Origin: a virus
IMG/VR virus record: IMGVR_UViG_3300032116_016245
Coordinates: 1-32,706 of that record
Length of the DNA: 32,706 nt
Direction: 5' to 3' (one strand)
Part shown: positions 4,585-29,915 of the stretch, in pieces
Layout: each line of letters starts with the position of its first letter
Position numbering within the stretch: position 1 is the stretch's first letter
Notes under the pieces: model-generated
Seen by the model: only the letters and a program-made list of their open reading frames with translations
Told to the model about the DNA's origin: nothing
The model's database searches: none
Made by a program: the position numbers and the translations under genes

Positions 4585-4753
4585 GGCTGTCATTTATCGT
4601 TTCTTTTCCGTTACAGTAACATTTTTAATTACGTTTGCTGTTACTGGTAGTTTTGATATTAGTTTAAATATTTCCATACTTGACTTTATAGGAAAGACTG
4701 TATTATATTACATCTTTGATATAAGCTGGAATAATTTTATAAGGAAATTATGA
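4469..4753 (+). CDS. DUF2061-like small membrane protein, overlapping the gene before it
   Basis: The C-terminal two thirds match the DUF2061 pattern: LLVKAVIYRF, a hydrophobic segment FLITFAVTG, then GKTVLYYIFDISWN. This is the 'K-x-x-x-x-R ... TG ... K-x-x-L-Y-Y ... W' signature of small predicted membrane proteins with two helices. The ATG at 4469 has AGGAG six bases before it (4458-4462), so I prefer that start, giving 94 residues. It then overlaps the kinase-nucleotidyltransferase gene by 116 bases in another frame, which is unusual for this genome. A later non-ATG start near 4555 would remove the overlap. Function is unknown. The stop overlaps the next ATG at 4750. Confidence 0.6.
   Translation: MGEMWGIRWNKFISVRRLRAFLRLILGRRWLSNRTLLVKAVIYRFFSVTVTFLITFAVTGSFDISLNISILDFIGKTVLYYIFDISWNNFIRKL
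4680..4709 (+). promoter_or_regulatory. Possible promoter, TTGACT-N18-TATATT, inside the DUF2061 gene
   Basis: TTGACT at 4680-4685 and TATATT at 4704-4709 are 18 bases apart, 40 bases before the QueC-like gene start. The boxes match the other promoters of the window, but the site lies within an AT-rich coding sequence where such matches arise easily. Confidence 0.35.
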
Positions 4754-5265
4754 AGCCTACCGGATTATTTTTTACTGGGGGTGTTGAAAGTACACTGCTC
4801 CTGTATCAATTATCTAAAACTATAAGTAAAATAAATTTATATACGATAACTAACCCGTACATAAATTTAAATAGAATAGAAACCATAATAAATTATGTAA
4901 ATGGAATATGTTTTGTGAAGAATGTAACTCCATTTTTAATACCTTGGAAAGAAAGTACCGGAGAACGCACATTCATTAGATGGGCTCAGCATTTAGCATC
5001 AGTTGAATTAAATGCATTATATATAGGTAGTAATGAACACATGGATCATTTACCTAAAAGGCAGTATGTTGAACATAAAAAAATCGTAATACCTTTTAGA
5101 GATTTAAAAAAAGATGAGATAGTAAAAATGTATATAGAAAATAATTTGTTAGACTTGTTATTTTTAACTCATAGTTGTTTTTCTGATAAAAATCTCCATT
5201 GTAATACTTGTGGGGGTTGTGTAGAAAGACGGTGGGCGTTTGAAAGGAATAATTTATATGAGTAA
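4750..5265 (+). CDS. QueC-like PP-loop ATPase (copy 1)
   Basis: The 171-residue protein begins with the PP-loop FTGGVESTLL at 8-17, a variant of SGGxDS in which the Asp is Glu. It ends with C143-x7-C151-x2-C154-x2-C157 followed by ERRWAF, which is the zinc site of QueC (7-cyano-7-deazaguanine synthase). QueC turns carboxy-deazaguanine into preQ0 with ATP and ammonia. At 171 residues it is shorter than usual QueC (about 220-230) and the middle is diverged, so the substrate may differ. The other preQ0 genes (folE, queD, queE) and a DNA transglycosylase are not in the window. A second QueC-like gene at 25762 has the same cysteine spacing. The ATG overlaps the previous stop. Confidence 0.7.
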   Translation: MKPTGLFFTGGVESTLLLYQLSKTISKINLYTITNPYINLNRIETIINYVNGICFVKNVTPFLIPWKESTGERTFIRWAQHLASVELNALYIGSNEHMDHLPKRQYVEHKKIVIPFRDLKKDEIVKMYIENNLLDLLFLTHSCFSDKNLHCNTCGGCVERRWAFERNNLYE

Positions 5266-9244: not shown

Positions 9245-9850
9245 ATGCTTAATCCAAATAGGTTTATACAATGGATAAATGTAATACGAGAGGAAAAAGG
9301 ATACTCACAATACCGTATTCTAGAAAATTTTTGGGCTAGCCAAATTAATAGTAAATATTGGTTATTAGAAAATTTAAAAAACCATTGTAGAATCGGGAAA
9401 AAGTCCTCCATTTATATTTTTGGGGGTTGGTTCGGTATATTAGCACAACTTATCCGTGATAATTATCCTCAAACAACCATTTATAGTATAGATTTAGATG
9501 AAGAGTGTGTTTATTATGGGAATCGGTTGTCATTAAAAAATGACCGTATAAATTTCATTGTTGACAATATGGAAAATTTTAATGATTTTTCTAAAAAAAC
9601 TTCTTTAATAATAAATACATCTACGGAACATATAACGCAAAAAACTTTTGATACATGGTTGTCTAAAGTTCCCACGAATGTCCCTATAATTTTGCAAGGA
9701 AACAATTTTTATGATTGTGAAGAGCATATTAGATGCTCTTCGTCTTTAGAAAATTTTTTAGAAATGAATAAAATGGATCAAATAGTATTTAAAGGTTTAT
9801 TGAATTGTACAGAATTTAACAGATATATGACTATAGGTTATAAAACATGA
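9245..9850 (+). CDS. Class I SAM-dependent methyltransferase-like protein
   Basis: The 201-residue protein has IYIFGGWFGILAQLI at 57-70 as motif I (SAM glycine loop) and IYSIDLDEECV at 79-89 as motif II, with INFIVDNMENF after that for motif III. LIINTSTEHI at 121-130 would be the motif IV strand. The GGW-G-LA and INTS-EH wording is typical of a methyltransferase-like family common in marine phages, whose substrate is not known to me. The stop overlaps the first radical SAM gene by ATGA, so the two are co-translated. Confidence 0.7.
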   Translation: MLNPNRFIQWINVIREEKGYSQYRILENFWASQINSKYWLLENLKNHCRIGKKSSIYIFGGWFGILAQLIRDNYPQTTIYSIDLDEECVYYGNRLSLKNDRINFIVDNMENFNDFSKKTSLIINTSTEHITQKTFDTWLSKVPTNVPIILQGNNFYDCEEHIRCSSSLENFLEMNKMDQIVFKGLLNCTEFNRYMTIGYKT

Positions 9851-11268
9851 GTGATTTAGAAAGAATAAAAAATACTTTACCTGTAATTAATTCCATTAGC
9901 CCAACATTCTGTTTAGCTAAATGGCATCACTCGCAAATTTATCTTCAAACAGGACATACACATAGTTGTTATCATCCACCGCCACATAAAATTCCATTAG
10001 AGGGTCTAGACTCTAATCCTTCATTATTACATAATACTCCTATTAAAAAACAAGAAAGATTGTCAATGTTAAAAGGAGAAAAACCTTCTGGGTGTCAATA
10101 TTGTTGGAACGTAGAAAAACTCGGAGAGGATTATGTGTCTGATAGGCATATAAGAAATTCATCTATTTACACCAAAGAAAGATTGGATGATATTCTTTTG
10201 CATGGTGCGGATTACAATATTAATCCAGAATACATAGAACTTTCTTTTTCCAATCAATGCAATTTTAAATGCGGTTATTGTCATCCTACTGCAAGTTCTA
10301 GATTCAATGCTGAAATACGTGAATTTGGTCCGTATGATTCTGTAAAAAATCATCGGTTAGAGCCTACTGGATATACAGTTTTTGAAAATGAGGATGAAAA
10401 TCCTTATGTAAAGGCTTGGTGGGATTGGTGGGACAAAATGAAGCATACTCTTAATATATTACGTATTACAGGCGGCGAGCCTTTGATGCATAAAAGCACC
10501 TGGAATCTTTTAGATTCTTTGGATTCTGAGCCATTGCCACACCTAGAATTAAATATGAATAGTAATCTAGGTGGTAAAAATGAGTGGGTAGAAAGGCTAG
10601 GAACCACAGTGTCACGTTTAATAAAACAGAAAAAAATTAAACAGTTTAAATTATGGACTAGTATAGATACATGGGGACCAAGAGCGGAGTATATTAGAAC
10701 TGGGTTAGACCTGGCGGTTTGGGAACAAAATCTAGATACTTACATTAAAACTACTAAGTCTCCTATCACATTTATGTGCACATTTAATATTTTATCTGTG
10801 ACCACATTTCCGTTACTCCTAGAAAAAATCCTAGAATGGAGAGCAAAATATGATGAATTTATACCTGTTATTAATACATTAGACCCTACAGAAAGAAAAA
10901 TAAGATTTGATACTCCTTATTTGAAAGAGCCACTACAGTATGATATGAATATTCTTCCTTTAGAAGATTATCTACCGTATATGGATAAAACCTTAGAATT
11001 TTTGAAAAATAATATGGATGATAGTGATGTAACAAAATTCTCTAGCTTAGAATATGAGAAATTCAGAAGAGTAAGAGATTATATGGCATCTTCATCTGCT
11101 AATGAAAATTATTCAATTACTAAAATAAAGGAAGGTAGAGCAGATTTTTATAATTGGTTCTGTGAGTTTGATTATCGAAGAAATACAAATTTTCTAGAAA
11201 CTTTTCCAGAAATGATAAATTTTTGGAAGATGTGTGAACAAGAATCTTTGCTTAGAAAAATAGGTTAA
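9847..11268 (+). CDS. Radical SAM enzyme with N-terminal cysteine cluster, twitch-type (copy 1)
   Basis: The 473-residue protein carries the radical SAM motif CNFKCGYC at 138-145, where three cysteines hold a [4Fe-4S] cluster, and GGEP at 209-212 for SAM binding. Before the core are C22, C41, C83 and C86 in a CLAKW ... CYHPP ... CQYCW pattern, which would suit an auxiliary Fe-S cluster. This resembles the 'twitch domain' radical SAM proteins often seen in marine phages. Such enzymes often modify peptides or sugars, but no substrate is known for this type. A paralogue at 14343 keeps the N-terminal motifs and matches the three core cysteines at identical residue numbers. The Fe-S carrier at 2432 could help mature both. 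Confidence 0.85.
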   Translation: MSDLERIKNTLPVINSISPTFCLAKWHHSQIYLQTGHTHSCYHPPPHKIPLEGLDSNPSLLHNTPIKKQERLSMLKGEKPSGCQYCWNVEKLGEDYVSDRHIRNSSIYTKERLDDILLHGADYNINPEYIELSFSNQCNFKCGYCHPTASSRFNAEIREFGPYDSVKNHRLEPTGYTVFENEDENPYVKAWWDWWDKMKHTLNILRITGGEPLMHKSTWNLLDSLDSEPLPHLELNMNSNLGGKNEWVERLGTTVSRLIKQKKIKQFKLWTSIDTWGPRAEYIRTGLDLAVWEQNLDTYIKTTKSPITFMCTFNILSVTTFPLLLEKILEWRAKYDEFIPVINTLDPTERKIRFDTPYLKEPLQYDMNILPLEDYLPYMDKTLEFLKNNMDDSDVTKFSSLEYEKFRRVRDYMASSSANENYSITKIKEGRADFYNWFCEFDYRRNTNFLETFPEMINFWKMCEQESLLRKIG

Positions 11269-11291
11269 CACTCACTCTTCTAAAAGATAAA

Positions 11292-12587
11292 ATGATTATA
11301 AATCTTTGTTACGAAAGTTACGAAACTAATAGTAATCTGTTAGGGTTTTCTGAAAAAACTCCTTCAGGAAACCCTATAACTCACGCATCTCCATTAGTTA
11401 CTTTAATGCAGGCAATTTCAGATTTGAAAGGATATAATAATTATTATCATCCTAGAGAAATTATTTTTAATAAAATTACACCTGAAAATACGGATTCAGT
11501 AGATAAGTATATAATACCTATCGGTGTTTCTCATGGTCCTGATGATTGGGCTAAACCTGAGTTATTTTCTAACTTACCAGAAGTTTATTTGAAGGACCTT
11601 CGAAATAAAAAAGCTATGCTAGTTATAGACCAAAGTTTAGAAGGATATCATCAAGATTATATTTGGGAATTTTTTCACAGTCAGTGTAGTTTATATGAAT
11701 TAAATCCGCGGTGTATTTTTTATGTGACAGGTAATATGATGACAGGATTACACTATCATGTGTGGTGTGATTCTAGAAATATTAGTTATGATAGTAGAAT
11801 AAGAGCTATAGGTTATCCACATTTTGAGCATGTAGTTTATTATGATTCTATTAAAAGAAATCAAAGTGATACTCCTCTTCCTACTTTTGAAAAACATGTG
11901 TCTTATAAAAAAGAGCACGTTGAAAATATCAAAACCTTTGCGTGTTTAAACAAAAGACAAAGACAGCATAGAGTATGGATGTTTGTAAGATTGCTCGAAG
12001 AACAACTATTGGATTCTGGTTTAGTTAGTATGAATGATTATGGAAGACATGTTCGCTCATGGGAAGGAAAAGAATTAACCAGAGAACAGATTGAAAAATC
12101 CAGTGAAATTCTTCCAAAATTGGTTTATGAAAAATCAAATAATGAATTAAACGATTTACACTATATTCATAGATTTAATGATGATGTTTGTTTGGATACA
12201 TTCTTTTCTATAGTTCCAGAAGCTGCATGTGGAGATAAAGAAAAATCTGTTTTTTTGAGTGAAAAAACCTTTAAGCCTATATGTTGTTCTACTCCATTCG
12301 CAATATGGGGCGGAAAATATTCTTTAAAGGAATTAAAAAAATTAGGTTATAAAACTTTTCATCCTTTTATTGATGAGAGTTATGATACTATGGACACATG
12401 GGATCGTTTAGAAGCTTTAATAAAAAATACTAAAAAAATTGATTCCATAAAAAATAAATTTGAATGGTTTGAAGGTATGCAAGATATTCTAGAGCATAAT
12501 TTAAAGCAAATTGAAATAAATACAATAAGAAAAGAGCCGCCGGCCTTTTTAGAACTTGAACGTTATTACATACAATATTTTGGGTGA
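11292..12587 (+). CDS. Conserved protein, possibly glycosyltransferase-like
   Basis: I recognise this 431-residue protein only as a type found in large marine phages. Near the middle is KTFACLNKRQRQHRVWM, and the C-terminal half has SIVPEAAC, FLSEKTFKPI, TPFAIWGGKYSLKELKKLGY and FIDESYD. A 'SEKTxKPI ... PF ... G' run is reminiscent of the donor-binding half of GT-B glycosyltransferases such as the GT10 fucosyltransferases, but I cannot confirm catalytic residues. No signal or membrane segment is evident. It sits between a radical SAM gene and an SGNH gene, 23 bases after the former and three bases before the latter. Confidence 0.55.
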   Translation: MIINLCYESYETNSNLLGFSEKTPSGNPITHASPLVTLMQAISDLKGYNNYYHPREIIFNKITPENTDSVDKYIIPIGVSHGPDDWAKPELFSNLPEVYLKDLRNKKAMLVIDQSLEGYHQDYIWEFFHSQCSLYELNPRCIFYVTGNMMTGLHYHVWCDSRNISYDSRIRAIGYPHFEHVVYYDSIKRNQSDTPLPTFEKHVSYKKEHVENIKTFACLNKRQRQHRVWMFVRLLEEQLLDSGLVSMNDYGRHVRSWEGKELTREQIEKSSEILPKLVYEKSNNELNDLHYIHRFNDDVCLDTFFSIVPEAACGDKEKSVFLSEKTFKPICCSTPFAIWGGKYSLKELKKLGYKTFHPFIDESYDTMDTWDRLEALIKNTKKIDSIKNKFEWFEGMQDILEHNLKQIEINTIRKEPPAFLELERYYIQYFG

Positions 12588-12590
12588 ATT

Positions 12591-13490
12591 ATGTGGAGAA
12601 AAAGTTATCCTGTTATTACAGAAGATTCAAAAATTGTTATAGGTCTTGGTGATAGTTTTACCCAAGGTCAAGGAGCAGTTCCCTGGAATATATGGGAACA
12701 CTATGAATGGGACTTGACTGGTAATCACCATAAAGATTATTCTATTAATGTATATGAGTTGGAATATGAAGGTTCTTGGGTAAATCAACTATGTAAGAAT
12801 CATATGCCTGGATGGACCCCGGTTAATTTAGGTCAACGAGGTTGTGGTAATAGAGCGGCAGTTAGAGATTTATATTATCATCCAGATTTAGGTTTAGAGA
12901 AGGCCAAAGAAAAAATAGTAATTTTTATGTTGAGCAGTATCAACCGGTTTGATTTTATATCTAAAGCTTTTAATGACCATCATCATTTTTATGCGATGTG
13001 GCCACATCCCTGGGACAAAAATGCTACTATGCCGTCTCTTTGGCAAGCATATCATGACCACGTATGGTCAGATTCTTTTGGAATTTTAGAATGTATTGGT
13101 AATATAAAGGAAGCAATGACCTGGTGTAAAGCTCATAATGCTAAATTTGCATTTGTAAATGCATTTGATATGTATATTACATATGAAGCATTTATACAAG
13201 GCTTTGCTCCTCATATAACAGATAGAAAGCAGCAAGAACAGTTCGTGAAATTAGTTGACTCTATACCTTGGGACAATTATATTATATTAGGAGATAAAAT
13301 TAGTGTTATTGATTATCTGTTCGATTTAGAAGGTGAAAACGCTCGCTCTTTGAATTGGATGGAATGGTGTAATCAACATAAAGGAACTCCGCGCGGTATG
13401 TTAACACCATGCGGCCATCCCTCGGTATTAGGTCATAAAATCATTGCAGAACAAATGTATAAAAATTTACAAGCTTTTAACTTCATCTAA
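12591..13490 (+). CDS. SGNH/GDSL-type hydrolase-like protein (copy 1)
   Basis: The 299-residue protein has VIGLGDSFTQGQG (16-28) near its start, the block I GDS motif with the catalytic serine, and CGHPSVLGHKII near its end, which fits block V with the catalytic histidine. NLGQRGCGNRAAV would be block II and MLSSINRFDF a block III-like stretch. Such enzymes act as esterases or acyl transferases, often on sugars or cell-wall polymers. No signal peptide is seen, so it should act in the cytoplasm or on a virion component. It is one of three SGNH-type proteins in the cassette, and only about four bases separate it from its neighbours. Confidence 0.75.
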   Translation: MWRKSYPVITEDSKIVIGLGDSFTQGQGAVPWNIWEHYEWDLTGNHHKDYSINVYELEYEGSWVNQLCKNHMPGWTPVNLGQRGCGNRAAVRDLYYHPDLGLEKAKEKIVIFMLSSINRFDFISKAFNDHHHFYAMWPHPWDKNATMPSLWQAYHDHVWSDSFGILECIGNIKEAMTWCKAHNAKFAFVNAFDMYITYEAFIQGFAPHITDRKQQEQFVKLVDSIPWDNYIILGDKISVIDYLFDLEGENARSLNWMEWCNQHKGTPRGMLTPCGHPSVLGHKIIAEQMYKNLQAFNFI

Positions 13491-13491
13491 T

Positions 13492-14346
13492 ATGAATATT
13501 ATCAATGGTGAAACTGTAAATAAAAAATTTCATTGGTTTCATCCAAAAAGTATTCTAGATAAAATTACTCCTAGATATAAAAATAAATTATTGCCTGGTT
13601 GGGTTGCAAAGTACTCTACAAAGCATTTTTTAAATAAAAGAGAAGAAGATGAATACATTTTTAATTTAAGTACACAACCAGAAGATTGGCACTACAGAAC
13701 TAAAAAAGTAATTTACAATATTAATAGTGATGGTTATAGAACAGGAGAACTTTCTACACTAACACCAGAAATAATAAAAAATTCTATAATATTATTTGGT
13801 TGTTCTTTGACTTTTGGTTCCTCAGTTGCTGAAGATGAAACCATAGGTCATCATTTAAAAATGTTGACCGGTAAAAATGTAATAAATTTAGGAGTTCCTT
13901 CTAGTTCAATTTATTTTAATACAGTAAATTCTTTTTTGTTTTATAAATTATTTGGTATACCTTATAGTATTGTTTATATATGGACAACATTAGACCGTGA
14001 TTTAATTTTTAACAAAACAAGTGTAGCGCATGTTGGACCTTGGAATTGCAGTGAGGTATCTACAAAATATACAGTAGATCCTATACAAACTAATTATTTT
14101 GATTCTTTTAATTATGATGAAATAAATGCTAATGCTAGAGGTATGTTTAATTCTATGATGGCTAAAAGCTTTTGGGAAGACAAATGTAAATTAGTTATGG
14201 GATCTTTTTTTGAACAGACAGCACATTTCACTAATTCCAATTTAGTTTTCTCTAATGATAAAAAGGCCAGAGACTTATTACATTCTGGTAGTGGTAGTAA
14301 TTATAATGCTGCTGAAAAAATTGCAAAGTTTATGGGTGAGATATGA
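13492..14346 (+). CDS. SGNH-like protein (copy 2)
   Basis: From the ATG at 13492, one base after the preceding stop, the product has 284 residues. An earlier in-frame ATG at 13444 lies within the previous gene and is unlikely. IILFGCSLTFGSSV (99-112) is a GDS-like block I with Cys before Ser105, NLGVPSSSIY fits block II, and DLLHSGSGSNYNAAEKIA near the end fits block V (DxxH). The first 90 residues precede the fold and are unassigned. The gene overlaps the second radical SAM gene by ATGA. The substrate is unknown, but acyl or acetyl removal or transfer on a glycan would fit the family. Confidence 0.65.
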   Translation: MNIINGETVNKKFHWFHPKSILDKITPRYKNKLLPGWVAKYSTKHFLNKREEDEYIFNLSTQPEDWHYRTKKVIYNINSDGYRTGELSTLTPEIIKNSIILFGCSLTFGSSVAEDETIGHHLKMLTGKNVINLGVPSSSIYFNTVNSFLFYKLFGIPYSIVYIWTTLDRDLIFNKTSVAHVGPWNCSEVSTKYTVDPIQTNYFDSFNYDEINANARGMFNSMMAKSFWEDKCKLVMGSFFEQTAHFTNSNLVFSNDKKARDLLHSGSGSNYNAAEKIAKFMGEI

Positions 14347-15851
14347 AAAGTTTTTATGATAGTAATGCCGATAAGGCAGAAAAACAGTTATCTGTAATTT
14401 CTAATAGCATGTGTTATGCTAAATGGGCACAAGTTTCTTTACACTTAACTAATGGAAGAACACACAGTTGTTATCATCCTCCCACGCATCCAATACCATT
14501 AGAATTATTGAAGGAAGATCCTTCAATATTGCATAATACACCACATAAAAAGGAAGAAAGAAAACTAATGTTGGCCGGCGAGCGCCCAGCCGGTTGTGAA
14601 TATTGCTGGAGGATAGAAGATGTTGGGGGAAGAAGTGACAGAATTTATAGAAGTGGTGAGCCCTGGGCTCAAAATTCTGTTAAAGAAATACAAAAAGTTG
14701 GTGCCGAAGATAATATAGAACCAAGATATGTGGAAGTAAATTTTAATCAAGCATGTAATTTTAAATGCAGCTATTGTAGCCCCCATCTAAGTTCTACGTG
14801 GGAGGAAGAAATAAAACAACATGGTTCTTATAAAATACATGAGGGCGAACACAACAATATTTTTTATTTAAAACGTGATGGACTCATGCCATTAAAAGTA
14901 TCTAATAGGGATAATCCATATGTAGAGGCTTTTTGGGAATGGTGGCCTAAACTATATAAAAATCTTGAAGTTTTTAGAATGACTGGCGGAGAACCATTAA
15001 TGGATCATAATACTTTTAAAGTGTTAGATTACATCAATGAAAATCCAAATTCAGATTTAGAACTGAGCATTACTTCTAATTTATGTCCCCCGAACCAAGA
15101 ATTATTACATAAATTTGTAGAAAAAATAAAAAAAATCGAAGAAATACATATTTGGAAAGATGATGAAAAATTTAATCCGAGTTCTGGTAATCATTGGTAC
15201 GTTCAGCCTGCGTGTAAAAACGTAACCGTTTTTGTGAGTTTAGATTCGTATGGACAACACGCTGAATATATACGTCATGGTATGAATTTTAAACAATTGC
15301 AAAAAAATATTGAATATATTTTAAAAGAAACTAATCAAGTTAACATTACTTTTATTAATACTTTTAACATTTTAAGTTTACCTAAGTTTGATAAATTTTT
15401 ACAGTACATATTAAAGCTACGAGAAAAATATTCTAGAGAAAAACAAGGAATTAAAAAAATTCCTATAATTGATCCTTGGTATAAACACCCAGATTTTATT
15501 TTAAATCCTAGACAGCGTATAGGATTTGATATTCCACTGTTACGATATCCTTTATGGCAGTGTATACAAATACTACCGCCTAAATATCATAAATATCTGG
15601 AAAAATCCATAAAGTTCATGAAAGAGAATAGGTCAGATGAAGTTAAACAAGATTTCCGAGGATTTAGAGACTTTGAAATTGATAAAGCTGAAAGAAATCT
15701 ACAATGGATGAAGGAAGGTGCTAATATGAAACCTTCAGAAAAAGAAATTGCTTTAAAAAATTTAAAATTATTTTTTAAACAACATGATGAGCGCAGAAAA
15801 ACTAATTTCACACAGACTTTTCCGGAATTAAAAGAACTTTTAGAGGATTAA
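14343..15851 (+). CDS. Radical SAM enzyme with N-terminal cysteine cluster, twitch-type (copy 2)
   Basis: The 502-residue protein is a paralogue of the one at 9847. It has CNFKCSYC at 138-145 and GGEP at 215-218, preceded by C24, C43, C85 and C88 in a CYAKW ... CYHPP ... CEYCW pattern. Long N-terminal phrases are shared, for example HSCYHPP, the LHNTP block and NPYVEAFWEWW against NPYVKAWWDWW. The C-terminal 150 residues differ more, with an insertion around IIDPWYKHPDFILNPRQR. The two probably act on related substrates or sequential sites. The start is coupled to the SGNH gene upstream, and the next SGNH gene starts on the base after its stop. Confidence 0.85.
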   Translation: MKSFYDSNADKAEKQLSVISNSMCYAKWAQVSLHLTNGRTHSCYHPPTHPIPLELLKEDPSILHNTPHKKEERKLMLAGERPAGCEYCWRIEDVGGRSDRIYRSGEPWAQNSVKEIQKVGAEDNIEPRYVEVNFNQACNFKCSYCSPHLSSTWEEEIKQHGSYKIHEGEHNNIFYLKRDGLMPLKVSNRDNPYVEAFWEWWPKLYKNLEVFRMTGGEPLMDHNTFKVLDYINENPNSDLELSITSNLCPPNQELLHKFVEKIKKIEEIHIWKDDEKFNPSSGNHWYVQPACKNVTVFVSLDSYGQHAEYIRHGMNFKQLQKNIEYILKETNQVNITFINTFNILSLPKFDKFLQYILKLREKYSREKQGIKKIPIIDPWYKHPDFILNPRQRIGFDIPLLRYPLWQCIQILPPKYHKYLEKSIKFMKENRSDEVKQDFRGFRDFEIDKAERNLQWMKEGANMKPSEKEIALKNLKLFFKQHDERRKTNFTQTFPELKELLED

Positions 15852-16700
15852 ATGAAAAAAAAACTACTAATTACATTGGGGTGTAGTTACACAGAGGGTG
15901 TGGGGGCGTATTCTGATGATATAGAAAAACCTTTAACTAAAAAAGAAAGAAAAAATGACCTTATACCACAAAGCATTTATCAATTGCATCGTCCAAATTT
16001 TCATAAAGAAGGATGGCCGATAAAATTACAAAAACTATTAGGGTATGATTATTGTATTAATAAAGGGCTTGGAGGATCTTCTACTTCCGGCCAAGCTAAA
16101 AGATTTATAGAAAAATTAGAGGATTATAAAAATTTACAAACTGAGTATGATATTTTTATTTTTTGGTTAATGACTTTTCCGTCTAGAATAAGTTTTTATA
16201 CTGGAGGAAGAGTTACTGATTTATTATTAGGTGCAAATACCAATACTAAGTTTCAAACACATCCGTTAATGATGGAATATTTTACTTTCATAGAAAATCC
16301 AGACTTAGACATGTGCCTAGAACAAATTTTTTATGTCAAGGTGATAAATGAAATTTGTGAAAAATATGGTATGAATTTTCTTTATGGGGGTTTTAATAAT
16401 TTTATAACTACTAATATACAACTGCTTGCGCCCGAGTTAAAAGATAAAGCTATTGATTCAGAATGGGATAGTTTATCTAAAAATTTAAAACCAGAACATT
16501 TGTCGGAAATTTGTGACCATCCTAATGCTAAAGGATACACTGTTATGGCTGAAAATATCTTTGAGAGAATAAAATCTCTTCATCCACACTTAGTAAATAG
16601 TGTGCCTGCTACAGATTCTTCTTGGATTTGGGATGGCAATGGAAAAGTTTATACAGCTCCTGACGAACTTTATACCAATAATAGGCCTCGCGTAAAATGA
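15852..16700 (+). CDS. SGNH-like protein (copy 3)
   Basis: The 282-residue protein opens with LLITLGCSYTEGVGA (5-19), a block I motif with the serine at 12, and has LGGSSTSGQAKRF as block II and ICDHPNAKGYTVMAENI near the end as block V. The catalytic set therefore looks complete. No export signal is present. The start abuts the radical SAM stop with no gap, and the end overlaps the carbamoyltransferase start by ATGA. A radical SAM gene followed by an SGNH gene occurs twice in the cassette, with one extra gene between them in the first case. Confidence 0.7.
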   Translation: MKKKLLITLGCSYTEGVGAYSDDIEKPLTKKERKNDLIPQSIYQLHRPNFHKEGWPIKLQKLLGYDYCINKGLGGSSTSGQAKRFIEKLEDYKNLQTEYDIFIFWLMTFPSRISFYTGGRVTDLLLGANTNTKFQTHPLMMEYFTFIENPDLDMCLEQIFYVKVINEICEKYGMNFLYGGFNNFITTNIQLLAPELKDKAIDSEWDSLSKNLKPEHLSEICDHPNAKGYTVMAENIFERIKSLHPHLVNSVPATDSSWIWDGNGKVYTAPDELYTNNRPRVK

Positions 16701-18157
16701 GTAATTTAATTTGGGGAGTTTCCGCTCCCGGTCATGATGCATCTATAACGGTTATAAAAGATAACGAAATATTATTTGCATCACAAAGCGAAAGATATTC
16801 TGGGTTAAAAAATGATCCTAATATAAACCTAGGCATAGTCAAAGACGCATTAAAATATGGTAATCCTGATTTAGTTATATGGCATGAAAATCCTTATTTA
16901 AAGTGTCTACGTGGTTTATATGCCGGGCAAGGATTGCAATTTCATAATCCGAAAAAATATCTAAGAAAATATGGTATTAATGCACCCGTTGAGTTCGTTG
17001 GTCACCATCACAGCCATGCGGCTGGGGGATATTACACATCTCCATTTAGAGAAGCAGCCGTTCTTGTAATAGATGCTATAGGTGAGTTTGATACTACTAC
17101 TATATGGCATGGAAAGGGGACTAGACTACAGAAAAAAATGTCTCTCAAGTATCCGCATAGTTTGGGGTTATGGTATTCAGCTATGACACATCGAATTGGA
17201 TTAAAACCTAACGAAGAAGAATATATATTGATGGGTATGGCAGCATACGGCGATCCATTAAAATATACTTCTATAATATTAGAAGATTTTTTTGATAGTA
17301 AAAAATTATTAAAGCTAAATCACAATCTTCATAGAGGATGTTCCTGGTGGAGACCAGAATTAAACACTGAACAAGACAAGTATGATATTGCAGCTGCAAC
17401 ACAATTCATATATGAACTTCATTTGCACGATTTATTAGATAAAACAAAAAAAATAACAAATTCTGATAATGTAGTATTAAGCGGAGGCTGTGCATTAAAT
17501 TGTGTGGCGAATGAAATAGCTTTTAAGTATTTTAAAAATGTTTGGATTATGCCAAACCCAGGGGACGCTGGAAATAGTTTAGGTTGTGTTGCTGCTTTTC
17601 AGGAAGAATTTTTAAATTGGAAGAATCCATATCTGGGCCATGATATCGGTAATAGATACCCAAATGAAGTATTGATAGATACATTGTTAGAAAACAAAAT
17701 TGCTGGTGTAGCTGCCGGCCGGTCTGAATTTGGACCAAGAGCTTTAGGTCATAGAAGTTTATTAGCAGATCCACGTGGAAATAATATAAAAGATATGGTA
17801 AATGTTATTAAACAACGACAAAAATTTCGCCCTTTCGCCCCTGCTATTTTGGCTGAACATGCTCATAAGTATTTTCATTTACCATGTAAAGACTCTCCCT
17901 ACATGCAATTTACAGCAACATGTAAACATCCTTTAGAATTTCCTGCCATCGTTCATGTAGACGGAACATCTAGAGTTCAAACTGTCTCTGAAAAAGATTC
18001 ACCAGACTTTTATAAATTTTTAAAATGCTGGTATGAAGAAACAGGTTGTCCAATGATTTTAAACACTAGTTTAAATATAAAAGGAAAACCCATGGTTAAT
18101 ACTCAAACAGATGCCATGGATTTTGAAAACATGTATAACATACCGGTATTATTTTAA
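16697..18157 (+). CDS. NodU/CmcH-family carbamoyltransferase
   Basis: These enzymes transfer a carbamoyl group from carbamoyl phosphate, through an adenylate, to a hydroxyl on a small molecule, sugar or base. The 486-residue protein has the N-terminal ASKHA-like part with GVSAPGHDASI at 7-17, GHHHSHAAG at 102-110, VIDAIGEFDTTTIW, MGMAAYGDP, VVLSGGCALNCVANE and NPGDAGNSLG. The C-terminal YrdC-like part shows SEFGPRALGHRSLLADPR, FRPFAPAIL and LNTSLNIKGKPMV. It is somewhat shorter than typical members. Phage homologues acting on 5-hydroxymethylcytosine have been reported, and antibiotic or sugar carbamoylation is the other known role. In this cassette a glycan or nucleotide target is possible. 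Confidence 0.88.
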   Translation: MSNLIWGVSAPGHDASITVIKDNEILFASQSERYSGLKNDPNINLGIVKDALKYGNPDLVIWHENPYLKCLRGLYAGQGLQFHNPKKYLRKYGINAPVEFVGHHHSHAAGGYYTSPFREAAVLVIDAIGEFDTTTIWHGKGTRLQKKMSLKYPHSLGLWYSAMTHRIGLKPNEEEYILMGMAAYGDPLKYTSIILEDFFDSKKLLKLNHNLHRGCSWWRPELNTEQDKYDIAAATQFIYELHLHDLLDKTKKITNSDNVVLSGGCALNCVANEIAFKYFKNVWIMPNPGDAGNSLGCVAAFQEEFLNWKNPYLGHDIGNRYPNEVLIDTLLENKIAGVAAGRSEFGPRALGHRSLLADPRGNNIKDMVNVIKQRQKFRPFAPAILAEHAHKYFHLPCKDSPYMQFTATCKHPLEFPAIVHVDGTSRVQTVSEKDSPDFYKFLKCWYEETGCPMILNTSLNIKGKPMVNTQTDAMDFENMYNIPVLF

Positions 18158-18158
18158 T

Positions 18159-19088
18159 ATGAATAAAGTTGCGTTTATTGCGTGTGGTCTTTTACGAGAA
18201 TTTTCATCCTGTTATCCTTCTTGGAACATTTTTGATTCCCAAGATAATTATGTTTTCACATGGGATTTAGATTATAAAAAATCTTGCCTTGAAAAGCCTA
18301 TACCATCTATAACTAAAATTGAAGACCTTATAGAAGCTAAAGATAAAAAAATTATATTAGACTACCAGGTGTATAAAGATAATGGCAATATTAACCCTAC
18401 TTTAAAGAGTCCTTTTCTATGGTCTTATGTGGAAGATAATATCTCATATGATTATGATTATGTTTTATTGACTAGACCAGACATGTATTTCTATAAGCGA
18501 AGATTTCCTACTTTAATACACCCGGGAGAAAATGAAATACAAGTTTTTTGTATAGATGGTCCTTTAATGGGAGATTATGTTTTTTTTATGCGAAGAAGCA
18601 CATATAGTGTGTTTGTTAAGTATTTTTCAGACTATATCACAAAAAATGAACACATGCATATGATTCATCATCAATTAACAGATTTTTTTGATAAACATAA
18701 AAATTTCATTATAAATGATAATCTAAAAAAATTTTTCATGTGTGATATACGACGGCCTTCAGTGATTTTGTCAGCTATTGGTGAAGAATCTTTTATGTGT
18801 AATTTATCTGAGGAATTCAAAATTAGTTTTGATAGATGCAGGCCACCAGAAAGAATAGGTGTTCCTTACGAAATAGCATTATTATTAATTAATCCAACAA
18901 TACTAACACCAAAAGAAAGAGACCTAGCATTACATAAACTAAATACACCAATCATTAATTATTCTCATAAGATTTTTGAAGCTGAATCCTTAGAAATAGG
19001 TTTGGACAAAATTAAAACTTATACTTATTTAACTGGGCGTACTTTTAAAGATATATTAACTGTTAATATGGAAGAATTAAATGTCTAA
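18159..19088 (+). CDS. Putative glycosyltransferase-like protein, tandem duplicate A
   Basis: The ATG at 18159 is one base after the carbamoyltransferase stop; an in-frame ATG at 18111 would overlap that gene. The 309-residue product begins VAFIACGLLREFSSCYPSWN and has DNYVFTWDLDY and then YDYDYVLLTRPDM. The 'LR-F--C-PSW ... D-hh-TW ... RPD' pattern is found in uncharacterised viral and bacterial proteins that I associate with sugar transfer. No catalytic assignment is possible. The next gene is a tandem copy with near-identical DNA over the first 114 bases of the shared part. The two genes overlap by eight bases. Confidence 0.55.
   Translation: MNKVAFIACGLLREFSSCYPSWNIFDSQDNYVFTWDLDYKKSCLEKPIPSITKIEDLIEAKDKKIILDYQVYKDNGNINPTLKSPFLWSYVEDNISYDYDYVLLTRPDMYFYKRRFPTLIHPGENEIQVFCIDGPLMGDYVFFMRRSTYSVFVKYFSDYITKNEHMHMIHHQLTDFFDKHKNFIINDNLKKFFMCDIRRPSVILSAIGEESFMCNLSEEFKISFDRCRPPERIGVPYEIALLLINPTILTPKERDLALHKLNTPIINYSHKIFEAESLEIGLDKIKTYTYLTGRTFKDILTVNMEELNV
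18168..18281 (+). repeat. Direct repeat unit, first copy (second at 19093-19206)
   Basis: Bases 18168-18281 and 19093-19206 are aligned at a constant offset of 925 and differ only at 18269/19194 (A against G), so 113 of 114 bases match. A second identical stretch of 40 bases occurs at 18447-18486 and 19378-19417. Sequence between and after these is clearly different, so the repeats lie in the 5' parts of two paralogous genes. Confidence 0.9.
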
Positions 19089-20043
19089 ACGAGTTGCGTT
19101 TATTGCGTGTGGTCTTTTACGAGAATTTTCATCCTGTTATCCTTCTTGGAACATTTTTGATTCCCAAGATAATTATGTTTTCACATGGGATTTGGATTAT
19201 AAAAAAACAGGTATTGATACTCGTTTAGAGTTATCGTCTAATGTAAAAACACAAGAATTATATAAAGCAAAAAAAGAAAAAGGAATTATTAATTACGAAA
19301 TTTATAAGGATGAAAACAAATTATTATATAACCACAAAAATTCTTTTTTGTGGTCTTATGTAGAGGATAGAATCTCTTATGATTATGATTATGTTTTATT
19401 GACTAGACCAGACATGTTTATAAAGGTATTAGATGGTCACAGTTTTTCCTTTCCAAAGGAAAATGAGATACAAACTAATCATCTAAATTTAGAAGCAAGA
19501 ATGGTCAGTGACACTATATTTTTTATGAGAAGAACTACCTATGCTTTATTTGCAAAAAAAATATTTACCTTTATAAGTTCTTATGGACCTGGTAGCATAC
19601 ATCATATTCTTACAGATTTTTTTAATAAAAATGCAGAATTTATTGTAAATAACAATTTACAAAAAAGTTTATTTTGTGAGATATATCGGCCATCTTTAGT
19701 AAATCAATCTTATACTCCAGCATTATTCCCATATCATATAGTAGAAACTACTAAACTATACTGGGATAAATTTCATAGGCCTGACCAACATGTGCATTAT
19801 GACTTTGCAATTGTGTTGCTTAATAATACTATAGCTACACCTGATGAAAGATTTAATTTCTTGAATAGTATACAAAACCAATTAAACAAACATTACAATT
19901 TCAATTTCAATTATAAAATATTTGAGTCTAGCTCCAAAGAACTAGGAATAGATAAAGTTCTTAAATACACAGAAATATCGGATAAAAAAATCAATAAAAT
20001 AGTGGTGTGTAATATGCAAACTGGTGAAATTGAAATGGTTTAA
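19081..20043 (+). CDS. Putative glycosyltransferase-like protein, tandem duplicate B
   Basis: The 320-residue product shares the opening VAFIACGLLREFSSCYPSWN, the NYVFTWDLDYKK block and YDYDYVLLTRPDM with its upstream neighbour, but the rest has diverged. Shared weaker phrases include FLWSYVED, FFMRR-TY and the ending region KIFE. Identity concentrated at the N-terminus suggests either a recent duplication with fast divergence elsewhere or gene conversion. It is the last gene of the AT-rich cassette; a hairpin and then the ligase promoter follow. Function is unassigned. Confidence 0.55.
   Translation: MSKRVAFIACGLLREFSSCYPSWNIFDSQDNYVFTWDLDYKKTGIDTRLELSSNVKTQELYKAKKEKGIINYEIYKDENKLLYNHKNSFLWSYVEDRISYDYDYVLLTRPDMFIKVLDGHSFSFPKENEIQTNHLNLEARMVSDTIFFMRRTTYALFAKKIFTFISSYGPGSIHHILTDFFNKNAEFIVNNNLQKSLFCEIYRPSLVNQSYTPALFPYHIVETTKLYWDKFHRPDQHVHYDFAIVLLNNTIATPDERFNFLNSIQNQLNKHYNFNFNYKIFESSSKELGIDKVLKYTEISDKKINKIVVCNMQTGEIEMV
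19093..19206 (+). repeat. Direct repeat unit, second copy (first at 18168-18281)
   Basis: This is the partner of the unit at 18168-18281, with 113 of 114 bases the same. It encodes the N-terminal block of duplicate B. Confidence 0.9.
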
Positions 20044-22774: not shown

Positions 22775-25465
22775 ATGCGAAAATTTTTAATACTTCTTCT
22801 TTTTGCCCCGTTTTCGTCGGTATTTGCCCAAACGGGGCAAATTGTTGGTAGAGTACTTGATGAAGCAACTGGTCAAGGATTAACCAGTGTCGGTATTCAA
22901 GTTGTTGGTACCACGACGGGTGTGATGTCTGGTGTGGATGGACGATATCGGTTACAAACGGTTGCAGGTACGACTACCATTCAAGTCCGTCGTATTGGAT
23001 ATACGCCAAAGACGATTACGGGTATCGTGGTTCCAGCAAATGGTGTTGTGGAACAAGACATTGTAATGAAAGTAGCTAACGTACAATTATCTACCGTCAG
23101 TGTCACCGCAGTAAAAGAAAACGGTAGTATCAATTCCGCCTTGAATGCACAGAAGAACGCGACCAATGTGACGAATGCAGTGACCGCAGAACAAATCTCT
23201 CGTTCACCCGATGGAGATGCAGCACAAGCAGCACAACGTATCAGTGGGGTAACGGTACAAGATGGTAAGTATCTTCAAGTACGAGGATTGAGTGAACGTT
23301 ATACTACAGCAAACTTGAATGGTGTACGACTTCCAAGTCCAGAACCCGAACGGAAAGTCGTACCATTAGATTTGTTCCCATCCAGTTTGTTACAAGAAGT
23401 CAGTACTAGTAAGACGTTCACTCCAGACCAACCCGGTGATTTTGCTGGAGCCACAGTCAACATCAAGACGAAAGAGTTCCCTGCACGAAAGCAAATGAAT
23501 TATACGATGAGTGTGGGAGCAAACAGTCGGGTATTGTCTAACACCTTACCATTTGCTCCTCGTGCGGGTGGTGAGTTGATTGCTGTCACTGGTACCTCTC
23601 GTAACATGCCAACGGATTTAGCAACGGCAAACTTCTTGGGATCGGTCACACAAGAACAGATGAATAACATCATTCGTTCCCAACGGAATGTCTGGTCACC
23701 TTATTATCGTAACGGTCGTGGGAACAGTTCGTTGGGGATGTCAGCAGGTGGCAATAAAGTATTGGGAAAGAACATTGGGTATGTATTCAGTGGAAACTAT
23801 GGATACAGTGAAGAAGTGCGAAGTAACGAACAGTTTGCCGTAGGTAATCAAGGACCAAACAATACCGTGGTACCCTTGACCACATTGAATGGACAAACTG
23901 CTCGTGTGGGTGTACAGTGGGGTGGTATTGCGAATTTCTCCACGATGATTGGGCAAATGTCTCGTGTCTCATTGAACAGTACCTTTACCCGAAACGCTGA
24001 CAATGAAGCCCGAGTAGATGCAGGATACGATGAAAACCTTGCTGATAGTATTCGTCGCACCACCTTACGATACGTGGAACGGGGTGTCGTATCCATCACG
24101 GGACAAGGTGACCATCAACTCTCTACCAACAATAAAACCTCGTGGTCACTGACGACAGCACACACCAGCCGTAGAGAACCTGACCGTTCTGATGTGGTGT
24201 ATGCACGAAACCCATCTGTTGGGTATTCGCTGTTGAGTTCATTGGACGGGGCTCGTCGGTTGTATTTTGATTTACAAGAACAGAACCTTGTCGGGCAATT
24301 GGATCACACACTGACCATTGGTAATAAACATACTGTGAAGGTGGGAACCTATTATCGTAATACCGAACGAAATACGCAAGCACCGATTTACGCATTCATT
24401 ACTCGTGCAAATGAAACGGTAACGACACAACCTGCTGATGTAATCTTCAGTAAAAATCAAGCATGTCCAACGTGTAACACCATCAATGTTCAACCGATTG
24501 GGCAAGCAGGTTCGTACACGGCAACAGATGTGAATACCGCAGGATATGTCATGACGGAAGTTCAGTTCGCAGACCATATCAAAATGATTGTGGGTGGTCG
24601 GGCAGAATATGCAGACATCAATGTGAATACTGCAACACAAGGTGGATTTACGGTAGCATCTAATTTGCGTAACTTTGATGTGTTACCGGCGTTTCTTCTT
24701 AACACACGATTTAGTGATAACACCAATCTTCGGTTCGCAGTATCTCGTACCGTCACTCGTCCAGAATATCGTGAGTTGGCACCTGTCACCTTCCGTGATG
24801 TATTAGGTGGTGTGAGTGTAACGGGTAATAATAAATTGCGTCGGGGATTAATTAATAATATAGATATGCGTTATGAACACTTCCCAAACCCAAATGAAAT
24901 TTTGAGTATTGGATTATTTGCAAAACAATTTATTGATCCCATTGAACGAGTAGAACAAGCAACCTCTGGTGCCTATCAAGCCAATTTCCAGAATGCATTA
25001 ATGGCTGATAATATTGGAATTGAATTGGAAGGACGAAAGCAGGTCTTGACTTTTCTCTCAATCTTTAGTAATATTACGGTGATGAGTTCAACGGTACAAC
25101 TGGATACGACCAGAGGATTAACGGTGACGGATAGTAAACGGTCATTAGTTGGTCAAGCACCATATGTTGTTAATTTAGGTTTAACGTACTCGTCAATGAG
25201 TGGTCGGGCCAACGCAACCATATTGTATAACACGGTAGGTGACAGAATATTTGCCGCTGGTGTTCTTCCACTTCCAAACATTGTCGAGAAGGCTCGTCAT
25301 ATGTTAGATGTCACGGTAAAAGCACCAATAGGTCAACGGGCAAATGTGAAACTGGATGTTCGTAATCTGTTGGATGCACGGTATCGGTTTATGCAAGGCA
25401 CCTTGGAACGAGAAGGATATAATGTGGGACGTATGATTTCACTTGGTATATCTTTAAACAATTGA
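22775..25465 (+). CDS. TonB-dependent outer-membrane receptor
   Basis: The 896-residue protein starts with a Sec signal (MRKFLILLLF, cleavage likely after VFA, 16-18). Residues 20-105 are a carboxypeptidase-regulatory-like domain (GQIVGRVLDEATGQGL, SGVDGRYRL, VRRIGYTPK). STVSVTA at 107-112 may be the TonB box. The plug lies near 125-235, with RISGVTVQDGKYLQVRGLSE, LNGVRLPSPEPERKVVPLD and DFAGATVNIKTKEFP. The rest is a beta-barrel with repeated aromatic and Thr-rich strands, ending MISLGISLNN rather than in the usual aromatic residue. Such receptors import siderophores, vitamins or glycans across the outer membrane. It is intact and less AT-rich than the cassette genes. Regulatory-domain wording resembles Gemmatimonadota and Bacteroidota receptors. 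A host origin with later fixation in the phage is likely. Confidence 0.92.
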   Translation: MRKFLILLLFAPFSSVFAQTGQIVGRVLDEATGQGLTSVGIQVVGTTTGVMSGVDGRYRLQTVAGTTTIQVRRIGYTPKTITGIVVPANGVVEQDIVMKVANVQLSTVSVTAVKENGSINSALNAQKNATNVTNAVTAEQISRSPDGDAAQAAQRISGVTVQDGKYLQVRGLSERYTTANLNGVRLPSPEPERKVVPLDLFPSSLLQEVSTSKTFTPDQPGDFAGATVNIKTKEFPARKQMNYTMSVGANSRVLSNTLPFAPRAGGELIAVTGTSRNMPTDLATANFLGSVTQEQMNNIIRSQRNVWSPYYRNGRGNSSLGMSAGGNKVLGKNIGYVFSGNYGYSEEVRSNEQFAVGNQGPNNTVVPLTTLNGQTARVGVQWGGIANFSTMIGQMSRVSLNSTFTRNADNEARVDAGYDENLADSIRRTTLRYVERGVVSITGQGDHQLSTNNKTSWSLTTAHTSRREPDRSDVVYARNPSVGYSLLSSLDGARRLYFDLQEQNLVGQLDHTLTIGNKHTVKVGTYYRNTERNTQAPIYAFITRANETVTTQPADVIFSKNQACPTCNTINVQPIGQAGSYTATDVNTAGYVMTEVQFADHIKMIVGGRAEYADINVNTATQGGFTVASNLRNFDVLPAFLLNTRFSDNTNLRFAVSRTVTRPEYRELAPVTFRDVLGGVSVTGNNKLRRGLINNIDMRYEHFPNPNEILSIGLFAKQFIDPIERVEQATSGAYQANFQNALMADNIGIELEGRKQVLTFLSIFSNITVMSSTVQLDTTRGLTVTDSKRSLVGQAPYVVNLGLTYSSMSGRANATILYNTVGDRIFAAGVLPLPNIVEKARHMLDVTVKAPIGQRANVKLDVRNLLDARYRFMQGTLEREGYNVGRMISLGISLNN

Positions 25466-25469
25466 TAAA

Positions 25470-25755
25470 TAATAATGTAGGATGGTAGTAGATTGCTCAA
25501 ATCGAACTTATTCTTGGACAGGGGTTCGACTCCCCTCACCTCCACTTAGCAGTGTTTTAGTAGTACTTAAGAAGTTACGGGGGTGCCTGGTTTCGACAAG
25601 GATGAAAGTACAAGAGAGAGCTACCCGAGAGGCGACTGCCGCAAGCAGAGCAAAAAACTATAACTGGCACATTTAATTCGCCACTTGCATTAGCTGCTTA
25701 ATTAAGTAGCATGCCGGGTTTGGGGTTACCCTGGGAACAGAAAACCCCCCACATT
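25470..25755 (+). ncRNA. ssrA: Circularly permuted (two-piece) tmRNA gene
   Basis: tmRNA rescues stalled ribosomes and tags the unfinished protein. Here the 3' half comes first. T stem-loop AGGGG-TTCGACT-CCCCT is at 25520-25536 and acceptor strand CACCTCC plus discriminator A at 25537-25544. After 34 bases comes the 5' half: GGGGGTG at 25579-25585, then the D-like CCTGGTTTCGAC. The acceptor strands pair over seven positions with G3-U70, the alanine identity pair. CAAGGATGA (25597-25605) pairs with TTATTCTTG (25508-25516) as helix P2. A GCTGCTT/AAGTAGC hairpin at 25693-25710 holds the tag stop. A pseudoknot follows: CCGGGT/ACCCTGG (25714-25719, 25728-25734) with GGGGTT/AACCCC (25722-25727, 25743-25748). 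CCA is not encoded. The outer ends are approximate. The intervening segment ends in a small hairpin (25563-25578) beside the mature 5' end. Confidence 0.88.
25666..25701 (+). other. tmRNA tag reading frame
   Basis: After TAACT, the resume codon GGC opens a frame of 11 residues, GTFNSPLALAA, with TAA at 25699-25701. LALAA is the classic degradation signal seen by ClpXP and related proteases. The TAACT-GGC context is as in Bacillus tmRNA, so the full tag would be (A)GTFNSPLALAA. The resume codon is assigned by analogy. Confidence 0.75.
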
Positions 25756-25761
25756 AATATT

Positions 25762-26337
25762 ATGCATATACATATTCCAGAAAATATTGAAAATATAAAC
25801 ATTTTGATGTCTGGGGGTGCGGATAGCACCCTTTTAACATTTTTGCTATCTAAACAAACCGATAAAAAAATTATCTGTCATGTTTTACATGCCAATACGC
25901 AAACCCAACAAATAATAGAAAATATCATAAAATATTTGACTGTTAATTTTAACGACAGATATGTATTAAATTATTTTAAAAATAAAAAATTTTTAATAAG
26001 AGAAGCAGTAGAAAATATACTTATGATATATCCTGGCGTAGTATACACGGGGTGTAACAAAGTAGTATACCATATACAACCTACAGTGTATATACCAGGC
26101 GACACTCCTCCCGTCCGCGGCCCAGTGGCCAATGAATATCATATCCGTCCTTTTATAGATTTAGATAAAACTGAAATAATAAAAATATATAAAGACGAAG
26201 GTTTACTGGATTTATTGTCCATAACTAAATCTTGCGGCTTACCTGGCTACGAGCGGTGCGGAGGATGTTATTTTTGTATGGAAAGGGCATGGGCTATTGA
26301 AAGTAACGATATAATCGACATAAATAAACTATTATAA
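25762..26337 (+). CDS. QueC-like PP-loop ATPase (copy 2)
   Basis: I place the start at the ATG at 25762, because an in-frame ATG at 25711 lies inside the tmRNA. The 191-residue product has the PP-loop MSGGADSTLL at 16-25, with the full SGGxDS form, and IRPFIDLDKTEIIKIYKDEG at 128-147. Zinc-type cysteines follow at C158-x7-C166-x2-C169-x2-C172, then ERAWAI. This is closer to true QueC than the copy at 4750. QueC makes preQ0, used for queuosine and in some phages for 7-deazaguanine DNA. No transglycosylase is visible. It begins the second AT-rich patch, next to a subtilase and a sulfotransferase-like gene. Confidence 0.75.
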   Translation: MHIHIPENIENINILMSGGADSTLLTFLLSKQTDKKIICHVLHANTQTQQIIENIIKYLTVNFNDRYVLNYFKNKKFLIREAVENILMIYPGVVYTGCNKVVYHIQPTVYIPGDTPPVRGPVANEYHIRPFIDLDKTEIIKIYKDEGLLDLLSITKSCGLPGYERCGGCYFCMERAWAIESNDIIDINKLL

Positions 26338-29090: not shown

Positions 29091-29337
29091 TCAAATATCA
29101 GTCGAATATCTGATAACAAAAGAATTCACAAACACCCAAGATTTTTCAATGTTTATTGAACGAGAAGCCATTCGTAGAAAAATTGGTTATATGGAAGCAC
29201 TTTTAGAATATTGTGCTGACAAGGACATTGAACCGGTGGCCATTGCATCCATGATTTCTTCATCGTTGAAAGAAAAAATTCAAGCCGAAGCTGAAGAAAT
29301 GAATTTGTTAAAGAAAACTGGCAAACTACCTGTATGA
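29062..29337 (+). CDS. 33: Late-transcription co-activator, T4 gp33-like
   Basis: From the ATG at 29062 the protein has 91 residues (MAKKKETDP...). The helix-rich part IGYMEALLEYCADKDIEP, SSLKEKIQAEAEEMNLL and TGKLPV matches T4 gp33, where SYLEATTAFLEENSIPE and EKIQSEAIDENLL are the counterparts. In T4, gp33 binds the RNA polymerase flap and links it to the sliding clamp for late transcription. The gene is followed by gp59 and gp32, in the T4 order 33-59-32. An ATG at 29029 would overlap the previous gene more deeply. The end overlaps gp59 by ATGA. Confidence 0.82.
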   Translation: MAKKKETDPNQISVEYLITKEFTNTQDFSMFIEREAIRRKIGYMEALLEYCADKDIEPVAIASMISSSLKEKIQAEAEEMNLLKKTGKLPV

Positions 29338-29915
29338 ATGTAAATGATGCTTATAAAATATACACTGCTCTGCGCCTTCATTTCACAACTGATAACTATG
29401 ATATTCGCAGTGGCATAGCTCCTCGAAAGCCAAAAGCTGGAGTAAAGCCTAGTTTCAAAAAGAAGTTGGAAGTGTTGATGAAGCAATATAATTATGATGA
29501 AGAAGAATTCATCAATTATTTGGTTGCCAATTTTCTTTGTGGTAATGATTGGGGTATTTTTGAAAACACCGGACCAGAAATTTTCACACAATGGAAACGT
29601 GTTCAGGAAAGTTTAACCTACACGTATAAACAGGACATGGAATATCTAGCCACACAATCTATGTTAATTGAAGATACGTGGGTTTGTAGGAATGGTCATC
29701 CTGCCATTTTAAAAGCCTATTGTGGTAAAAAATGTTCCCTAGAAACACTTGTAATTCTAAATAAACTATATAGATTTAGTAATGAAGTAGATGATAATCT
29801 TGTGATGGATCCTGTGTGGACATCTACTTCAAGACTGATTCACAAATATTCACCCTTCATCAAAATAGACAAGGACAAGTTTTTCATGATTACACAGAAG
29901 GCATTCTATGAGTAG
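29334..29915 (+). CDS. 59: Replicative helicase loader, T4 gp59-like
   Basis: The 193-residue protein resembles T4 gp59 (217 residues), which loads the gp41 helicase on gp32-coated forks. Similar phrases are DAYKIYTALRLHFTTDNYDI against VYKLYLMIKQHMNGKYDV, LVANFLCGNDWGI against LVANQDAWIGD, and WKRVQESLTYTYKQDMEYL against YIGRLKQIKFKFEEDI. It lies between gp33 and gp32 as in T4, except for one small gene before gp32. The ATGA start overlaps gp33, and the stop overlaps the next gene by eight bases. Confidence 0.82.
   Translation: MNVNDAYKIYTALRLHFTTDNYDIRSGIAPRKPKAGVKPSFKKKLEVLMKQYNYDEEEFINYLVANFLCGNDWGIFENTGPEIFTQWKRVQESLTYTYKQDMEYLATQSMLIEDTWVCRNGHPAILKAYCGKKCSLETLVILNKLYRFSNEVDDNLVMDPVWTSTSRLIHKYSPFIKIDKDKFFMITQKAFYE

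Follow-up and report, generated by a model that had tools for sequence, protein, structure and literature searches.

The 32.7 kb stretch of DNA analysed here (record IMGVR_UViG_3300032116_016245, hereafter the window) is assigned to a T4-like freshwater phage and carries the T4-like markers gp32 (PF08804), PhoH and an ATP-dependent DNA ligase, as well as a gp59 helicase loader (29334–29915, phrog_269). On its plus strand, at 25477–25752, lies a complete permuted tmRNA gene, in which the 3' half of the tRNA-like domain precedes the 5' half; it has a 7-bp acceptor stem, a discriminator A, and a tag frame with a stop codon, preceded by PK1. The RF04321 model (tmRNA_permuted) is matched in full at 25484–25701 with 107.3 bits, against a gathering threshold of 47 (E 3.1e-20), RF01850 (beta_tmRNA) is matched over its full length at 25439–25756 with 91.9 bits against a threshold of 84, and ARAGORN calls a permuted tmRNA with the tag GTFNSPLALAA. 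A preliminary description of this DNA had proposed a circularly permuted tmRNA in a T4-like phage; the model matches on which it had staked that claim were obtained with both families, the gene lies where it was placed with the anatomy described, and it is close to certain that 25477–25752 is a permuted tmRNA gene. Its assignment to the beta subtype is weak, since the close relative L137, unlike the window gene, scores as alpha-type (70.7 bits).

All parts of the gene are on the plus strand. The acceptor piece, which is the 3' half of the tRNA-like domain, runs from 25477 to the discriminator A25544 (RF04321, RF01850 and ARAGORN); its 5' end is placed from the promoter discussed below, so the gene probably starts near 25477. 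Within it, the 3' strand of a distal P2 helix (25484–25488) pairs with 25621–25625 over 5 bp (98.1% of cells paired; one pair changed from GC to AU in two relatives), and the 3' strand of the proximal P2 (25508–25516) pairs with 25597–25605, which is the 9-bp P2 already recognized in the preliminary description (91% of cells paired; 7 of the 9 pairs changed on both sides). The T arm (25520–25536), with a 5-bp stem and the loop TTCGACT, is paired in 100% of cells and has two compensatory pairs. It is followed by the 3' strand of the acceptor stem, CACCTCC (25537–25543), whose U70 (25541) faces G3 (25581) of the 5' strand GGGGGTG (25579–25585), as had been noted for this wobble. The intervening segment (25545–25578), whose removal in processing is expected, is conserved only in L137 (90% identity, at most 45% to others), and its length varies from 3 to 151 bases among relatives.

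The coding piece (25579–25752), delimited by the models, ARAGORN and the alignment, with its 3' end taken from the end of the pseudoknot, comprises the 5' half of the tRNA-like domain, the PK1 region (25626–25655, core GGCGACTGCCGCAAGCAGAGC), the tag and a second pseudoknot. ARAGORN reads the tag frame, GGC...TAA (GTFNSPLALAA*), at 25666–25701. As described earlier, the tag stop (TAA, 25699–25701) falls inside a hairpin (25693–25710, GCUGCUU-AAUU-AAGUAGC), in which a UA/CG exchange keeps the pairing in relatives of the GTYN and GAYN types; DN-type relatives lack a stop hairpin of this form. The pseudoknot after the tag is of the H type (25714–25748), with S1 (25714–25718/25730–25734) paired in 97% of cells and S2 (25722–25727/25743–25748) in 81%, the latter with four pairs changed on both sides among 21 relatives.

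To evaluate the fold, 21 phage relatives were aligned and scored against the structure of the window gene. Paired cells amounted to 90.2%, against 82.5% in column shuffles, the covariation score was 0.223 versus 0.094, with none of 500 shuffles reaching the observed value, and 16 of the 44 pairs had changes on both sides. When the partner strand was slid by 1–3 columns, pairing dropped to 41–64% (at most 63.5%), a control that somewhat favours the structure, since this was drawn from the window sequence. Some pairing failures are misalignments: in L154 and L155 one additional base follows the acceptor, and extracting the two strands directly gives 7/7 acceptor pairs. In a larger set of 95 distinct phage permuted tmRNAs, all seven acceptor pairs were formed in 94, and pair 3 was G-U in all 94. 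These loci had been found by a tmRNA pattern that fixes pairs 1–4 and 7, leaving pairs 5 and 6 free to test, and each of these occurs in four standard types or more (pair 5: G-C 58, A-T 30, T-A 3, C-G 2, G-T 1; pair 6: T-A 79, C-G 12, A-T 2, G-C 1). G3-U70 is also invariant in loci fetched through phoH instead of the tmRNA pattern. The compensatory changes in acceptor and P2 helices of related phages, to which the preliminary description had looked, are therefore present, and a chance or tRNA-like artefact was rejected on the covariance-model scores and the covariation. The folding energy of the single window sequence is not above that of shuffles (z = 0.23) and is uninformative as evidence.

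A T4-type late-promoter-like box, GATAAATA (T4 consensus TATAAATA), stands at 25464–25471 on the plus strand. The core of such promoters in T4, ATAAATA, opens the alignment and is invariant in the 21 relatives; most rows read TATAAATA where the window reads GATAAATA, and the bases right after the box vary. The distance from box to T loop is 54–62 bases in every locus scored, the near clade spanning 59–62 and the distant clade having 54; in the cultured phage Melnitz, TATAAATA at L224:21001–21008 is followed by the T loop from 21055, again 54 bases by hand count. T4 late transcripts start about 6 bases beyond the end of the box, and from this spacing the predicted +1 would be the invariant G25477, just before the first helix strand. 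A conserved box at a fixed spacing points to late expression of the gene from its own promoter. ATAAATA is not enriched in the window (14 occurrences versus 18.8 expected), so it is by its position that the box argues for a late promoter. A sigma-70 promoter was considered and rejected, as none was found on the plus strand upstream of the gene (25300–25480), and no intrinsic terminator was found near the gene on the relevant strand. In Melnitz, Buchholz et al. assigned the tmRNA gene to an early promoter (PMC9004378); the box found there suggests late expression instead of, or besides, early expression. The anatomy given by the preliminary description stands, although at this upstream edge it had overlooked both the helix strand at 25484–25488 and the box.

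To follow the position of the gene without relying on the tmRNA, loci were collected through PhoH. Their order is constant: ligase, phoH, a variable cassette, tmRNA, a QueC-like and S8 protease cassette that some loci have and others lack, cell wall hydrolase, gp59 and gp32. ARAGORN calls a tmRNA at most 4.2 kb downstream of phoH in 64 of the 70 phage loci with enough downstream sequence. In four of the six others a TATAAATA box is followed by the T-arm/acceptor motif, with an RF04321 match of 111 bits on one of these contigs, and a fifth has the motif; the motif is missing in one of the 70 testable loci. By position and kind, the window gene is a homologue of the published phage gene. The view that a permuted tmRNA in a T4-like phage is unusual, put forward before, is not supported, given this synteny across a large phage group, Melnitz (PMC9004378) and ARAGORN permuted calls in cyanophages. 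The 402 phage genomes with a tmRNA that Buchholz et al. (2022) surveyed yielded 53 of the two-piece form, 50 being marine or aquatic (PMC9004378), and the tmRNA database holds 79 phage sequences (PMC11915505). As for other genes of the window, a cluster at 9245–20043 (radical SAM, SGNH-hydrolase-like, Nol-like carbamoyltransferase and glycan-related genes), which varies among relatives, sits between nucleotide metabolism genes and the DNA ligase, and two QueC-like PP-loop genes (4750–5265 and 25762–26337) are about 30% alike.

The TonB-dependent receptor upstream (22775–25465, 896 aa, plug domain and beta-barrel by Pfam) had been pointed out before and is indeed present, its gene reaching into the putative promoter box of the tmRNA gene, but it does not belong to a tmRNA unit: L137, whose PhoH is identical, has no receptor, with only 23 bases from the PhoH match to the ARAGORN start, and the receptor was not found in 13 tmRNA-bearing phage records in a search run without a positive control. 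Given L137, we read the receptor as an insertion or loss in the phoH–tmRNA interval. At 90–98% identity it occurs in three other T4-like contigs (L134:8001–10688, L135:8001–10685, L136:8001–9230), next to sliding clamp, clamp loader, ClpP-like and dCMP deaminase-like genes, and thus at two different genomic places, the phoH–tmRNA interval in the window and the clamp region in these contigs. A chimeric assembly of receptor and phage was rejected, because the contig L121 agrees across the junction at 99.95% (possibly from a related sample) and the receptor recurs elsewhere. Nor does the receptor assign a host, as an exact-pattern search of the genome collection gave no relative and its plasmid matches are 23–28% identical and scattered over Bacteroidota and Proteobacteria. 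The phage TonB receptors found in a literature search are from megaphages, with none from T4-like phages (PMC9723777). A AATAAATA box lies about 33 bases before the receptor start.

The window gene does not encode CCA, the acceptor being followed by ACTT (A25544 and CTT). In near-clade genes the discriminator or acceptor is followed by CTT, CTC, TTC or the like, whereas those of the distant clade and Melnitz encode CCA. As ACCA is encoded in 51 of the 94 phage permuted tmRNAs scored, both states are common, and its absence is compatible with membership in the permuted tmRNAs; CCA may be added post-transcriptionally, and near-clade RNAs would need the CCA-adding enzyme of the host. A search for SmpB in the window and 14 related records, mostly fragments but several of 100–178 kb, gave no match, although the control genomes were matched; with no smpB in these largely partial records, host SmpB would be needed too. 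Relatives also carry ClpP-like proteases, with strong matches in G001–G003 and weak ones in G008–G013, some of which may be other phage proteases; these enzymes are possibly relevant to the turnover of tagged proteins.

Comparison along its length indicates that the gene has more than one source. From the promoter to P2 it is 90–98% identical to L137 (90% in the spacer), which shares the same phoH protein, but in the tag region identity falls to 57%, versus 78% to L122 and L147, and in the stop hairpin and pseudoknot to 76% versus 88%. Downstream, the QueC/S8 genes are common to the window and L122 and absent in L137. The window gene thus seems to be a mosaic whose tRNA-like half resembles L137 and whose tag and pseudoknot half resembles L122, a cross-over near PK1, at about 25650, being the simplest reading of the identities. 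Tags are diverse in the phage set as a whole, with 58 different ones in the 95 distinct sequences, most ending in AA.

With Y at one base, the 21-base PK1 core recurs in 60 viral stretches and six species genomes; five of the latter matches lie inside betaproteobacterial permuted tmRNAs (Roseateles, Variovorax, Caldimonas) and the sixth, in Bradyrhizobium, lies outside any ARAGORN tmRNA. Across the tRNA-like domain and PK1, identity is at most 70% to the beta genes sampled and at most 60% to the alpha genes. A tree built from 76 sequences has only phage genes in the near clade (88/99) and sets the alpha genes apart in a clade of their own (100/99); the tree, of 180 columns and with bootstrap not settled, does not place the near clade relative to the beta genes. 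On this comparative evidence the window gene is beta-like in part and a long resident of phages. The suggestion that tag or gene could reveal the host is not supported, and host assignment by tag or tree was rejected, in view of these identities, the phage-only branch outside the alpha genes and the recombinant tag half. In the Roseateles and Variovorax genomes G016–G020 (L276–L280, L335–L338) a standard ssrA, with the tag ANDSTFALAA or ANDERFALAA, is accompanied by an additional permuted tmRNA whose tag ends in YLKQA, an unusual degradation end; G019 has a second permuted tmRNA with the tag ANESNFRLAA.

We propose that the window carries a functional phage-borne permuted ssrA, an account in which, taken as a whole, we have good confidence because of the covariation, the synteny and the intact tag frames. 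Late in infection, host RNA polymerase modified by the phage would start at about G25477 from the ATAAATA box, as its spacing suggests. The precursor would fold through the acceptor and P2 helices, which join both halves and are supported by covariation. Following the processing scheme for permuted tmRNAs of Keiler et al. (2000), as cited in PMC9004378, host RNase P would cut before G25579, the segment 25545–25578 would be removed, and the host CCA-adding enzyme would complete the end after A25544. The RNA would then be charged by host AlaRS through G3-U70, act with host SmpB, enter stalled ribosomes and resume translation at GGC, adding (A)GTFNSPLALAA, whose LALAA end should direct the products to ClpXP-type proteases. 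We infer two-piece processing, charging, tagging and degradation from the family to which the gene belongs. Presumably the phage would gain from the recycling of ribosomes at a late stage of infection, when broken mRNA abounds.

The gene might instead compete with the host tmRNA, taking host SmpB and stalled ribosomes so that the phage tag replaces that of the host and the phage controls degradation. Phage tags are very different from one another and from those of hosts, recombination brings together tag and tRNA-like halves of different origin, and mycobacteriophage DS6A has a tmRNA-like RNA without a tag that, in E. coli, acts as an inhibitor of the endogenous tmRNA (PMC11915505); an intact tag frame with a normal LALAA end would still rescue, however, and, although the data do not separate the two readings, we consider competition unlikely. 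Far less probable is that the gene is kept mainly as a homology anchor for the exchange of flanking cassettes between phages: the flanks do vary (TonB receptor and QueC/S8 genes present or absent) and the gene itself is mosaic, but an anchor needs sequence identity, not base pairs that covary while the sequence changes, nor an open tag frame. That a host ssrA was caught by chance, through imprecise excision or transduction, and is now a passenger is the least credible reading, for although the PK1 core is of betaproteobacterial type, the beta_tmRNA model is over threshold and Buchholz et al. suggest prophage exchange as the source of the Melnitz gene (PMC9004378), the wide phage synteny, the compensatory changes and the phage-only clade disfavour it.

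Within the preferred reading, a functional phage ssrA, we put forward more tentatively, as a possibility that we hold at somewhat below even, that in a large group of T4-like phages the permuted tmRNA belongs to the near-core genes and is transcribed late, from a late promoter of its own at a fixed spacing, and that its tag half is exchanged between phages as a module. If so, phages change the action of the tag without changing the tRNA-like half. These abundant phages would then supply their own ribosome rescue late in infection, as opposed to having captured a host gene by accident. Permuted tmRNAs had been described before in related cultured phages, to which the window gene adds a further case; what is new here is the fixed position behind a putative late promoter and a tag half seemingly swapped between phages. 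Late rather than early expression, the exact precursor ends, the dependence on host CCA-adding enzyme and SmpB, and modular tags are proposals that go beyond the searchable literature.

Among known systems, the ssrA of the Methylophilales phage Melnitz EXVC044M (MZ577097.1, 45984–46436; PMC9004378) is, like the window gene, a permuted tmRNA in a T4-like phage, here a cultured one, and the order is also alike, with phoH (ending at 44575), tmRNA, helicase loader and gp32 (at 48753). The Melnitz gene differs in being alpha-type by Rfam (RF01849, 106.7 bits), in its tag (ANDNYVPVDYALAA versus GTFNSPLALAA), in its encoded CCA and in a glutamine riboswitch directly behind it (L224:21399–21447), whereas none was found behind the window gene. 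Betaproteobacterial permuted tmRNAs (RF01850; Variovorax, Roseateles, Caldimonas) share with the window the gene order and, save one variable base, the PK1 core, but they encode CCA where checked, have tags beginning with AN and fall outside the phage clade in the tree. Permuted tmRNAs are likewise called by ARAGORN in the cyanophages S-CAM1, S-CBWM1 and S-SSM7, and in AG-345-P14; those of the first three have ANNIVAFSR-like tags, form a separate clade and stand beside neighbours other than those of the window gene.
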